Program-made: the position numbers and the translations under genes
Shown here: positions 6,937-61,879 of the stretch, one piece after another
How the letters are laid out: every line of letters starts with the position of its first letter
Numbering within the stretch: position 1 is the stretch's first letter
Assembly: GCA_010015805.1 (NCBI GenBank)
Contig: ML978124.1
Location: 1,550,001-1,614,000, forward strand
Source: Rhizodiscina lignyota
Lineage: Eukaryota > Ascomycota > Dothideomycetes > Aulographales > Rhizodiscinaceae
Length of the DNA: 64,000 nt
Direction of reading: 5' to 3'
Notes under the pieces: model-generated
The model's database searches: none
What the model saw: only the letters and a program-made list of their open reading frames with translations
Told to the model about the DNA's origin: nothing

Positions 6937-8713
6937 AAGTGCTATCCAAATGTAGGAGAGGTATGGTACAAAGTCTTTAAGGTTCGTAGCGTTAGGCCAC
7001 GAATAGTTTGAAGCAGACTGCCGCACACGGCAGATGTCATTGCAGAAGCTCCTGCCTTCTTGCCCGCTCAAGCCTTGGGTATCACATGCAAGGTACGCTC
7101 ACGAGAAACTAACTCCTTCGTATTGCTGCAGAGTGTCAGTTCTTCAGCTGTTGCTGAAGGCATATTGGGGACTCCATCGAGTAGGATGCTGAGCTTCCCG
7201 GAAGCAAACTTGGAGAGCAGTTCGACGTTAGGTTCGATGAATGTCCTCTGGATTTTCACCTGTAGCTATATACACTCTCCAGCTCCAAGAGTGTTTGTTA
7301 TTCATGACGTAAACTGACGTGGTGGCATCGGCCATCTCGAGCTGGGAGCTACCTCAACGTTCCCGCGGAGTCAATCTACTTCAATAATTGCTGCATTCAG
7401 AGATGCATTTGCGCCTGTCTCAACGCTGGCTATTGCACAGTTCCTCGCAAGTCGCATGCAGTGATCTTGACGAGGACATGGAGCCAGTTTTCTTGCCATG
7501 CAGCTTCTACGTCGCAAGTAACCTCGCGGCCTGAAAGCGGTTTCGAGACGTACGTAGTTCATTCGAATTGGCTTTCCCAGCTATTCCCAGAACGAGTTGG
7601 CCTCCGCATTCGACGAGCCGGTCCCAGACTTTGCTTCGCGTCGCGCGACGCGGGAGCAGCCTTCGGTGGTCGGGGTTTGCGCGTCAGGGTCGTGGGGAGC
7701 TTCAAGCACGGCGAATAGAGAAGACGATGGAGTTGGCTTTGCATGTGGGAAAACTTGATCTGAGCTGACGATCAGCAGTTCCTACGCATGCAGTCCGCCC
7801 TACAAGGCGAAAATAGCTGACCGGCCTGCAAGTTCTCGTCTCTCAAAAACTGCCACGCATGGACGTGCAGCTGCAGTGCGGCTCGTCAGACACAGGGAGA
7901 AGAGTCGGAAGAGTCATCGGCGTGCGAGGGGAAGGGTCAGTAGGCGCGTTTTAAAGGGCAATGGACACGGCCAGACGCTGATTCGAGTCTTGCTCCTGGT
8001 CGGAGGCAAAGGTCGTGACTCGTATTTCGATGCCGTGGGCGGTGGTGCGGAAATTAACTGCGAAAGACGCCCTGGCCCGATGCGCTGCAGCAAATCACAG
8101 GGCTCGCGCGGCGAGGGCAACCAGGTGCAGATTACGCCCAAGTATTCGGCTTGCCGGTCATTCGGACGCAGGCATCGTCTTTGCATGGAAACAAGAAACG
8201 TGCCGGTGCTGGGTCGGCCTGGCAAAAGACGCTTGTCAGATGTGAAGCAGGCCCAGGAACGCCTGGCTGGCTGGCAAGCTCTAGCGCGCCTTCGCTTCCA
8301 CGACGCAGAAAAGGACTACGAGCGTCAGCGCAGCGTCGCCTCATACACAAACGCAACACTGCTTCCAATCATCTGCGCAACCTCTACATGAACACTGCAT
8401 TGCTTCTGCCCATACTTGCCCGGCGCACCGTTTAGTAATGCGCTAATCGCAGCTGAGCGACGGTGTAGCTCCCATAAGCTGACCACCGCAAGCACCGCCT
8501 CTGCCTCCCAAAATCTACAGCACCTCCGACTCGAACTGCTTCTTCATCTGCCCACCGCCCTCTGCACCACGCCTTTTGGAACTCTTGTGCAACCGCAGAG
8601 CCCGAGAGCTGGGATGCTCCACCCGTTGCCATGAAGCGCAAATTTCACATTTCGCTCGGCCATCTGGTAGGCTGTTTTTGCTTTTGTTGCGAGAGGCCCG
8701 GATATCCACCACC
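6937..8713. other. Intergenic, 1.8 kb, no supported gene
   Basis: Several open frames of 60-170 codons occur, the largest at 7876-8391 (+). They overlap each other on both strands, are rich in Arg and Cys, and show no domain. The final 300 bp before 8714 is rich in C/T and A/C, typical of a fungal leader. Confidence 0.4.
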
Positions 8714-56061: not shown

Positions 56062-56176
56062 GGTAGATACCACACGGGGCAAGGGTTTGCCCCGGCCTCT
56101 TTAGGCAAAAATGAACTGCTGTTTTGTTACACGAAATGCGTTTGAAATGCTAGCTATGTGTTGATTTATCTCCCCT

Positions 56177-56344
56177 GCCAGTTTCTGGCGATCGAACGAG
56201 ACCCGTAACGGCGCCCCTTTTACACGACATCAAGAAGCAAATCTTCCAAGGCAGGCCGGGTAGGCTGCTCCCTACCAACCTCGAATATAAACTCACTGAT
56301 ATGCGGAAGTGTTTTAGAAGTGCTGAAGTTGAATCTAAAGAGCC
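56177..56344. repeat. MITE-related repeat, copy A
   Basis: Starts GCCAGTTTCTGGCGATCGAAC, a diverged form of the element end at 57397 (GCTAGTTTCCGGCGAGCGAAC), then ACGAGAC, AACGGCG, GACATCAAGAAG, AAATCTTCCAAGGCAGG and GATATGCGGAAG, matching the body of the intact element. The opposite end is absent. Confidence 0.7.
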
Positions 56345-56387
56345 TTATTTAGCGAGGGAGAAATATCGAACAAGGTCCGGGCTGGCG

Positions 56388-56533
56388 TTCCTCTGGCGCG
56401 ACATCGAGAAGCAAATCTTCCAAGGCAGGCTGCTCCCTACCAACCTCGAACGTATACTCAGTGATATGCGGAGGTTTCTTGGAAGTGCTAAATGTAAAGC
56501 TAATCGAGGCCCTGTTTGGGCAGCCAGGAATGT
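56388..56533. repeat. MITE-related repeat, copy B
   Basis: Tandem to copy A. GACATCGAGAAGCAAATCTT, CCAAGGCAGG, CTGCTCCCTACCAACCTCGA and GATATGCGGAGG are nearly identical to copy A, so A and B arose by duplication after the insertion diverged. Copy A has an extra CCGGGTAGG. Ends are eroded. Confidence 0.7.
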
Positions 56534-57130
56534 CGCATCTTAGGCTGACTTCAATATAGAAGCGATATCGAGATCATGAACTGGAGACCTGAGTATAAAG
56601 AACAGGTGAAGAACAGCTGTTAACAGTACTGACAAAGCCCATGGGGATCATATATATATGAGATATCTAGCTTGCTAAACAGGGCCTTAGTCTTTCAAGT
56701 TTCAACCGCAGCTCGCAGGAGGTACTACCCATTCTCGAGCACCGAGCCACGATACAGGTGCGACCAACCAATTGACGACCACCCGGTCACTTAAGAAACA
56801 AAAAAGTTGAGTCATGGCTATAATATGTCGAATGGCAAGCACGGATACTCTCATTAATCATTACAAGTCATACACCCTAGAGTTACGCCATTTGGATAAG
56901 GACCAGTTGATGTATGTTCAATTGAGCTTTCACTGATGCTCTCCTTTATGTTGAAAAACAAAACCCGTTCTTACTCCATCCTTGCAGGTCTACCAGGCTC
57001 GACTATTATTGACTGGCCTATGAACGACTAATTCATTGACGACTGGCCGGTCAACAGTGTTGACGTACCTGAGAATAAGGTACTCTTGCCATACAAGGAA
57101 CAGGAACCCGCTCGATGGGAAGGCGTTCGA

Positions 57131-57244: not shown

Positions 57245-58505
57245 CTACCTGATAAAAGGTATGCCAATCCAAGTCCTCAATCGATACTGTACGTAGTCGT
57301 CTCCAAAGAATTTGACGAGATGCTCCTCTTCATCTGTGCGAAAATGTTAGCAGCCCATCTGAATTTGCGCTTCAAAGCCCCTCGCCATACGAAGGCGCTA
57401 GTTTCCGGCGAGCGAACGAGACTTGCAACGGCGTTGCCTTCTCTGTGACATGGAGAAGAAATCTTCTAAGGCAGGCGAGGCAAGTTACTTCCTGACAACT
57501 TCGAATGCAACTTCACCGACGTGAGGAAGCTTCTTAGAAGTGCTAGGGGCAACTTTAATAGCGTGGCTCCGCAGACTGTTCGCTCGCTGGAAACTAGCTC
57601 CTTCATATTGAAAAGAACGCGATATCTCGCCCTTTTGTGCTCGTCGACGTCGTCGTCGCAAGAGAGGAAATGGTAGGCTTACGCGCAATCCGATGGTTAA
57701 AGAAATCCCAGAGCACCACAAGGTATACCCAGAAACAGATCGCATTGCCCAGAAACACCTGCAGTCCCACGGCCCACCAGAAGAAGCCGAAATAGCTCGG
57801 ATGTCTCAACACAGCGTAGATGCCCGTTGTAACAAGTCTATGATCCCTCGCCTTCTTCGTTTGAACCTTGTGGTTGAAGCTGGTACCGGCATGCGCCATA
57901 GCCATACTCCTGCATAGCTGGCCTATGGCCATTACAACCAATGCGCCCCATTGTACCGGCTCGTAAGTAAAGTGTGACTGCCAGCGCGGGAAGAAGAGGC
58001 TCGTGACGGTCGTTTCGAGAAGCGCGCAGAAGTTCGCGACGGTATACTGCCAGCCGTTGTTGAAAAGGAGGAAGGTGGAAGTCGTCGCTTTTGGAACGTT
58101 GAATCGTGCGTGCGTCCAGAACTCGAGGAAGTGGAACAGTGCGAGGGCGCCGAGGAGAAAGAACACGCGCCATGCCCGTGATGGGTCCGATGCTTCGAGA
58201 GAAAGAGCAGCATTGGCTGCTAGCGGGATGCTGAGGCCTAATGTAATTCCTAGAAAGAAAGCGCGCAGACCGATGCCAGACTGTGAGCGCTTGTGACCAG
58301 GAAGAAGTTCGTCAAAGACGACAAGTGGAGGGGGGCTGGCGGTCGTATTTCTCGGCAAGGTCGCGTCCCCTTTTGGAGTCCAATTGCCTTTCTCTTCAGG
58401 CCTATCTAGAGGCCATGATATTTGAGGGTCTCCGCCATCGTGGCCATTCGCGTGATGGTAGTCACCGTTGGTAGTTTCGAAGTTCGGAATCAGCGGGTCT
58501 GCCAT
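57245..58505 (-). CDS. STE14: Protein-S-isoprenylcysteine O-methyltransferase
   Basis: Two exons, 58505-57683 and 57333-57245, 303 aa. About 80 N-terminal residues are polar; membrane helices follow (AFFLGITLGLSIPLAAN and others), then FLEFWTHARFN, HAGTSFNHKV, LVTTGIYAVLRHPSYFGFFW and LVVLWDFFNHRIA. Exon 1 read straight through would end in a Thr/Ser tail that lacks the family end. A 349-bp intron (GTAAGC..CGCACAG) instead joins HRIA to HEEEHLVKFFGDDYVQYRLR and TWIGIPFIR, the conserved C-terminal EE/FG/Y block needed for cofactor and substrate binding. A 222-bp MITE-like element lies inside this intron. The enzyme methylates the prenylated C-terminal cysteine of a-factor-type pheromone, Ras and Rho proteins in the ER membrane. 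It is divergent from the acetyltransferase gene. Confidence 0.93.
57387..57608. mobile_element. MITE-like element with 31-bp terminal inverted repeats
   Basis: Left end 57387-57417 and right end 57578-57608 are inverted copies: ATACGAAGGCGCTAGTTTCC plus GGCGAGCGAAC, against ATATGAAGGAGCTAGTTTCC plus AGCGAGCGAAC, 28 of 31 identical. A TA dinucleotide sits at each outer edge, fitting a TA target (mariner-like), although the ends may simply continue. The 160-bp interior has no coding capacity. It is wholly inside the STE14 intron. Related copies are at 56177-56533 and a lone end at 61593. Confidence 0.8.
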
Positions 58506-61592: not shown

Positions 61593-61621
61593 GTTCGCTC
61601 GCAGGAAACTACCTCCTCCCT
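61593..61621. repeat. Lone end of the MITE-related family
   Basis: GTTCGCTCGCAGGAAACTA followed by CCTCCT matches the right end at 57578 (GTTCGCTCGCTGGAAACTA, GCTCCT) with two substitutions, and similarity continues a few bases inward. No matching left end was found upstream. Confidence 0.65.
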
Positions 61622-61879
61622 ATCCCCCTTAGCACTAGGGCATTCCCGGCCTCGGTACAGAATGAGAAATCCTATAATACACGAATGCACGTGCTCACGC
61701 GCTAGGACGTTCTGGGCACTCCTGACACTAAGAGCAACAGCAAATTCGAACAGTTATATTGAACTTAAGTTTTAGGTCTAATGTGGTTTTTCGACATGCA
61801 CACTGAATAACTAGTGGCATAACCGCAAAGGGCCCCCGCCCTTCCTAATAAACTCAGTCAGTCTGGTTTTCCTTACTGT

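Follow-up and report, generated by a model that had tools for sequence, protein, structure and literature searches.

A TA-flanked MITE lies within an intron of a STE14 methyltransferase gene in Rhizodiscina lignyota and is probably removed by splicing

Stowaway in plants is a TA-flanked MITE of the Tc1/mariner kind, and Fot1 is known from a niaD intron. In the fungus Sclerotinia sclerotiorum, MITEs of Mariner families measure 481–813 nt, as given in an excerpt of the report on them (PMC4188875). An excerpt of the work on Zymoseptoria tritici places 56% of the copies of the Harbinger element Donna in introns and identifies some introns of that fungus as non-autonomous elements (PMC10936205), and introner-like elements have been described in fungi including Dothideomycetes, according to an excerpt of a further report (PMC4457414). 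The locus described here lies in a window of 64,000 nucleotides of Rhizodiscina lignyota (contig ML978124.1, positions 1,550,001 to 1,614,000), in which the original prediction had placed a MITE-like element inside the last intron of STE14. The features are as follows, in positions of the window.

57683..58505, minus strand: STE14 exon 1, 823 nt, with the ATG at 58505
57334..57682, minus strand: STE14 intron, 349 bp, with donor GTAAGC, branch site CTAAC and acceptor CACAG
57245..57333, minus strand: STE14 exon 2, 89 nt, coding for the C-terminus EEEHLVKFFGDDYVQYR...PFIR and the TAG stop
57603..57605, minus strand: TGA closing the unspliced STE14 frame, equal to the first three bases of the MITE body
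57390..57605, minus strand: MITE body, 216 bp
57606..57607, no strand: flanking TA on the donor side, likely target duplication
57388..57389, no strand: flanking TA on the acceptor side, likely target duplication
57578..57608, minus strand: terminal inverted repeat arm on the donor side, 31 nt
57387..57417, plus strand: terminal inverted repeat arm on the acceptor side, 31 nt, 90% complementary

When left unspliced, the STE14 frame runs from the ATG at 58505 to the TGA at 57605–57603 with no stop between, which agrees with the predicted apparent end at 57603. Removal of 57682–57334, which begins with GTAAGC and ends with CTAACATTTTCGCACAG, joins the two exons into 303 codons followed by TAG. 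An alignment of this 303-aa product to Ste14 proteins had been proposed with the original prediction; PDB entries 5vg9 and 5v7p were aligned over query residues 77–302 (best E 1.6e-37), and the exon junction was gap-free in both alignments, with gaps present elsewhere in that of 5vg9. The conserved C-terminal block had been expected at 57333–57245 behind a consensus acceptor, and homology indeed runs to residue 302 of 303. With exon 2 included, the score of PF04140 (ICMT) rose from 88.2 to 97.5 bits (cut-off 24) and the profile end reached moved from 87 to 94 of 95, while PF04191 (PEMT) rose from 32 to 43.3 bits and its profile end from 84 to 104 of 105; the ICMT domain thus runs through the C-terminal block (97.5 bits; 5vg9 to query residue 302). 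The genome-wide ICMT search returned the STE14 locus at the top with 91.4 bits, and two further places above the cut-off with 29.9 and 25.8 bits. Since the spliced product aligned gap-free at the junction and the Pfam scores rise with exon 2, the predicted gene model is right as far as homology can tell, and with a conserved last exon, the Pfam gain and splice motifs in place, the gene looks intact, as had been thought probable. In a prokaryote contig collection, 44 stretches fitted the pattern used for Ste14 relatives and none was a true relative.

The MITE-like element was confirmed to lie wholly within the intron, with its body at 57605–57390 inside 57682–57334. Because the body starts at 57605 and is preceded by the TA at 57607–57606, the stop of the unspliced frame consists of the element's own first three bases; at this site the family consensus reads TACGAAGG and the STE14 copy TATGAAGG. 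The element, at 216 bp too small for a transposase, has many copies, and its arms are common to the family. Against shuffled sequences, the RNA fold of the STE14 intron scored z -3.87, with 0 of 100 shuffles as good, and the predicted fold holds about 28.5 expected pairs between the two arms and pairs the donor bases with probabilities of 0.22 to 1.0.

An intron of 349 bp had been taken as several times the local norm, and the comparison introns bore this out with lengths of 49–61 bp (n = 10: nine from CCT/Cpn60 genes and one from a P450 gene). These ten were measured as exon gaps in profile matches, corrected for profile overlap; the remaining P450 gaps were left out of the sample and are not introns, because one open frame is common to both sides. 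Taking away the element and one TA leaves a residual STE14 intron of 131 bp with no in-frame stop, about twice the usual 49–61 bp. By the motif patterns used, no second strong donor or branch-acceptor was found in the 349-base intron, and the STE14 copy of the element contributes no strong donor or branch-acceptor on the sense strand.

Using the intron as a query against the 33.4-Mb genome, at least 49 matches were obtained among the 40 of 117 candidates scored, including one self-match and six of arm length only. Besides the self-match, these were confined to query positions 72–303 of 350, and the residual intron found no match elsewhere in the genome among the same 40 of 117 candidates. A terminus pattern allowing up to 3 mismatches matched 198 times in the genome vs 10 times for the reversed control, and an internal 20-mer of the element 142 times vs 7 for its control; the family therefore comprises about 100 copies or more. 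In the fetched loci, 86 copies were placed in 77 of 79 loci plus the window, one of them a duplicate, giving 85 copies. The consensus of 45 aligned copies, which were chosen for likeness to the STE14 copy, is 220 bp long including both TA ends, and the copies diverge by 10–30%; the STE14 copy differs from it by 14.1% on the multiple alignment and by 9.5% by BLAST. No pair among 51 near-full copies exceeded 84.6% identity, which is also the identity of the STE14 copy to its nearest relative among the fetched copies.

Relative to the family consensus, 41 of the 45 copies (L013–L051 plus the window copy) carry more C-to-T and G-to-A changes than changes in the opposite direction, and the per-site C-to-T rate in the family is 0.257 at CpA, 0.181 at CpG, 0.128 at CpC and 0.073 at CpT. 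This CpA-biased pattern looks like repeat-induced point mutation (RIP), so that the divergence of the family is a poor clock and may overstate its age. As the nearest fetched relative is only 84.6% identical, the STE14 insertion is probably not recent, an argument weakened by the RIP-like mutation. Both ends adjoin a TA in 22 of the 39 full copies, one end in 16 and neither in 1. These flanks would fit a TA-targeting MITE, and, since no empty site was seen, the TA could instead belong to the terminal repeat.

Several copies lie close to one another or near genes. Downstream of STE14 and outside the gene, two partial tandem copies on the minus strand, in the orientation of the STE14 copy, occupy 56168–56552 of the window, and their aligned parts are without the outer terminal repeats; single terminus-like matches at 7104–7122 and 61604–61622 (2 and 3 mismatches) belong to no recognised full copy. 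Three abutting head-to-tail copies were found in L067 (1282–1944), and two close head-to-tail copies each in L073 (1463–1953), L079 (1501–1966) and L055 (1497–2031). The copy in L008 (1501–1713) begins about 60 bp beyond a P450 domain match (C6:376632–377171) and probably lies near the 3′-end of a P450 gene. The copy in L006 (1497–1716) directly adjoins a frame of 497 aa with F-box matches, on the side of its stop codon; that frame ends at 1724. A search for two transposase families, DDE_1 and DDE_3, identified one and two places in the genome, respectively. These were rejected as an autonomous partner, with no terminus pair within the 3.2–3.5 kb loci and just two single terminus matches, each with 5 mismatches; one of the loci, L053, holds a DDE_3 (Tc1-like) transposase match in a stop-free open frame of 218 aa, without the termini of the element family.

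Four further copies were located in introns, namely of a GH31 gene (L072), a cytosine/purine permease gene (L062), a TAP-like hydrolase gene (L065) and an MFS transporter gene (L064). In these four, the donor lies 16–23 bp before the element and the acceptor 27–38 bp after it; with STE14 included, the five validated introns have the donor 16–75 bp before and the AG 27–54 bp after. The residual introns of the four other genes are 45–60 bp, an ordinary length. For L072, L062 and L065 the joined peptide also matches paralogs, and support for the junction in L064 comes only from the open frame and from a Pfam match starting at profile position 120 just after it. All 8 stop-free matches to paralogs that cross the junction (GH31 1/1, permease 4/4, hydrolase 3/3) run through it without interruption, two weak hydrolase matches having been dropped, one with a stop and one barely reaching the junction; a search for contiguous matches, however, favours uninterrupted paralogs. 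The validated introns were drawn from the 39 loci that come first in likeness to the STE14 copy, and because Pfam was run on the flanking frames of 14 of these 39, five intronic copies is a lower bound.

All four other intronic copies are oriented as the STE14 copy, and only these four are independent for orientation, because the STE14 copy itself defines it. In a coding-score test at a threshold of 30 or more, 6 of the 85 copies passed in the sense orientation and none of the 85 in the antisense one vs 1.8% of 3000 random positions, and none of the 40 later loci (L087–L126) reached 30; the six include the unverified L007, and the validated L065 was missed by the test. At L070, another of the six, the element may lie upstream of the gene rather than within an intron, the frame there having a PigL_N match, under its cut-off, from residue 11. 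With narrow limits, a splice-motif scan picked out 5 of the 85 copies on the sense strand and none on the antisense strand vs 0.73% at random (sense strand, binomial p 4e-4, taking the copies as independent), the five including the unverified L073 and excluding STE14. The wider limits gave 7 and 2 of 85 (random 1.6%) and the widest 7 and 4 of 85 (random 2.9%), so that the orientation bias fades as the limits widen. Further candidates from the motif scan are L059, L073, L090, L101, L106 and L108.

Taken together, we consider it probable, at about 0.86, that a TA-flanked non-autonomous MITE sits in the STE14 intron and is spliced out, with a 303-aa methyltransferase as the result. The MITE would have inserted between the donor and branch site of an already existing intron and would be transcribed within the STE14 pre-mRNA; the spliceosome would work from the splice signals that the intron already had (donor, branch site, acceptor) and cut the element out along with it, yielding the 303-aa methyltransferase. 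The inverted repeats are predicted to fold as a hairpin, which would bring the donor to within about 115 nt of the branch site instead of 335 nt. We infer from these features that splicing is efficient, that the intron is older than the element and that the hairpin shortens this distance. Indirect signs point to an insertion tolerated by STE14, since the last exon is conserved, the nearest fetched copy is only 84.6% identical, no strong sense-strand splice motif was added and copies reside in four other introns. Counting against the main reading are the residual length of 131 bp and the donor pairing in the predicted fold, which could slow splicing.

An alternative, raised with the original prediction and not supported by the present analysis, is that the element impairs splicing, so that the intron is partly retained and STE14 output is lowered or regulated. 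On retention, the element's TGA would end the protein without its last conserved block, leaving a truncated product that is probably inactive. The intron is long against the ten measured, the donor is partly paired in the predicted fold, the in-frame TGA lies inside the element and has no equivalent in the 131-bp intron without it, and the RIP-like bias leaves room for an insertion younger than the divergence suggests. Since, against this, the fold is a prediction only, the last exon of STE14 is preserved, the family occupies introns of four other genes and no competing strong splice motif exists in the intron, we regard impaired splicing as rather unlikely. Far less credible is that STE14 truly ends at 57603 with the downstream block as a relic, a reading that draws on the unbroken unspliced frame from ATG to TGA: exon 2 extends the homology gap-free to residue 302 of 303, and the branch site and acceptor before it fit the consensus. 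The early stop as the real end of the gene was ruled out by the homology across the junction.

Two further proposals concern the family as a whole. An introner-like origin, in which the insertion created the host introns, would be in line with the uninterrupted paralogs in three host genes (8 of 8 stop-free spanning matches) and with the one orientation of all five validated copies. Yet that search favours uninterrupted paralogs, every one of the 5 validated introns has its donor and acceptor beyond the ends of the element, the four flanks are alike, by eye, only in the splice consensus, and the residual introns, STE14 aside, are of ordinary length (45–60 bp). The element does not carry its splice sites, and it was rejected as an introner on that account; we hold this origin very improbable, though the GH31, permease and hydrolase introns may have been gained. 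A somewhat less remote but still doubtful idea is that the family is adapted to introns, settling in short ones in one orientation, being spliced out cheaply and escaping purging. In that orientation the element would carry fewer cryptic splice sites, its hairpin would draw donor and acceptor closer to each other, and the low splicing cost to the host would allow the element to escape purging. Strong splice motifs occur in 27 of 51 near-full copies in sense vs 39 of 51 in antisense, and a sense-strand donor-like motif in one of the five intronic copies, L072; a better-kept hairpin was not detected in intronic copies, with no difference in arm score (p 0.73) or fold energy (p 0.20) between the 3 full copies in introns and the 36 elsewhere.

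With the spliced-out MITE as the preferred reading, the practical consequence is that an automatic gene caller with an intron-length limit would stop the STE14 model at 57603, and the conserved C-terminus would be missed. With five host genes in one genome, it could be measured how a hairpin element affects fungal intron splicing. Intron-dwelling elements are already known in Zymoseptoria, as far as the excerpted report goes, and the STE14 case merits a corrected gene model and is no surprise. A narrow search found no literature on the element family and, in the excerpts it returned, no account of the STE14 intron structure; the matches listed for the 11-letter terminus core were unrelated by title, and no published family was matched among them.

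In comparison with the known systems, the STE14 product is like the Ste14/ICMT methyltransferases 5vg9 and 5v7p in core and C-terminus (query residues 77–302) and shows nothing unusual against them. Like the MITEs of the Tc1/mariner kind, the element is short and non-coding, with inverted repeats, TA at its ends and many copies, but no autonomous partner with the termini of the family was found among DDE_1 and DDE_3 transposases, and at 216 bp the family differs from the Sclerotinia MITEs of 481–813 nt, the range in the excerpted report. As with Donna in Zymoseptoria, a DNA element has copies in introns of unrelated fungal genes; whereas Donna is a Harbinger element with 56% of its copies intronic in the excerpt, the present family is TA-flanked, and its 5 of 85 copies validated as intronic, a lower bound, form no majority. 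With the introner-like elements, as excerpted, it shares related sequences within introns of unrelated genes, and it departs from them in that the element does not contain the splice sites and the introns are mutually different.
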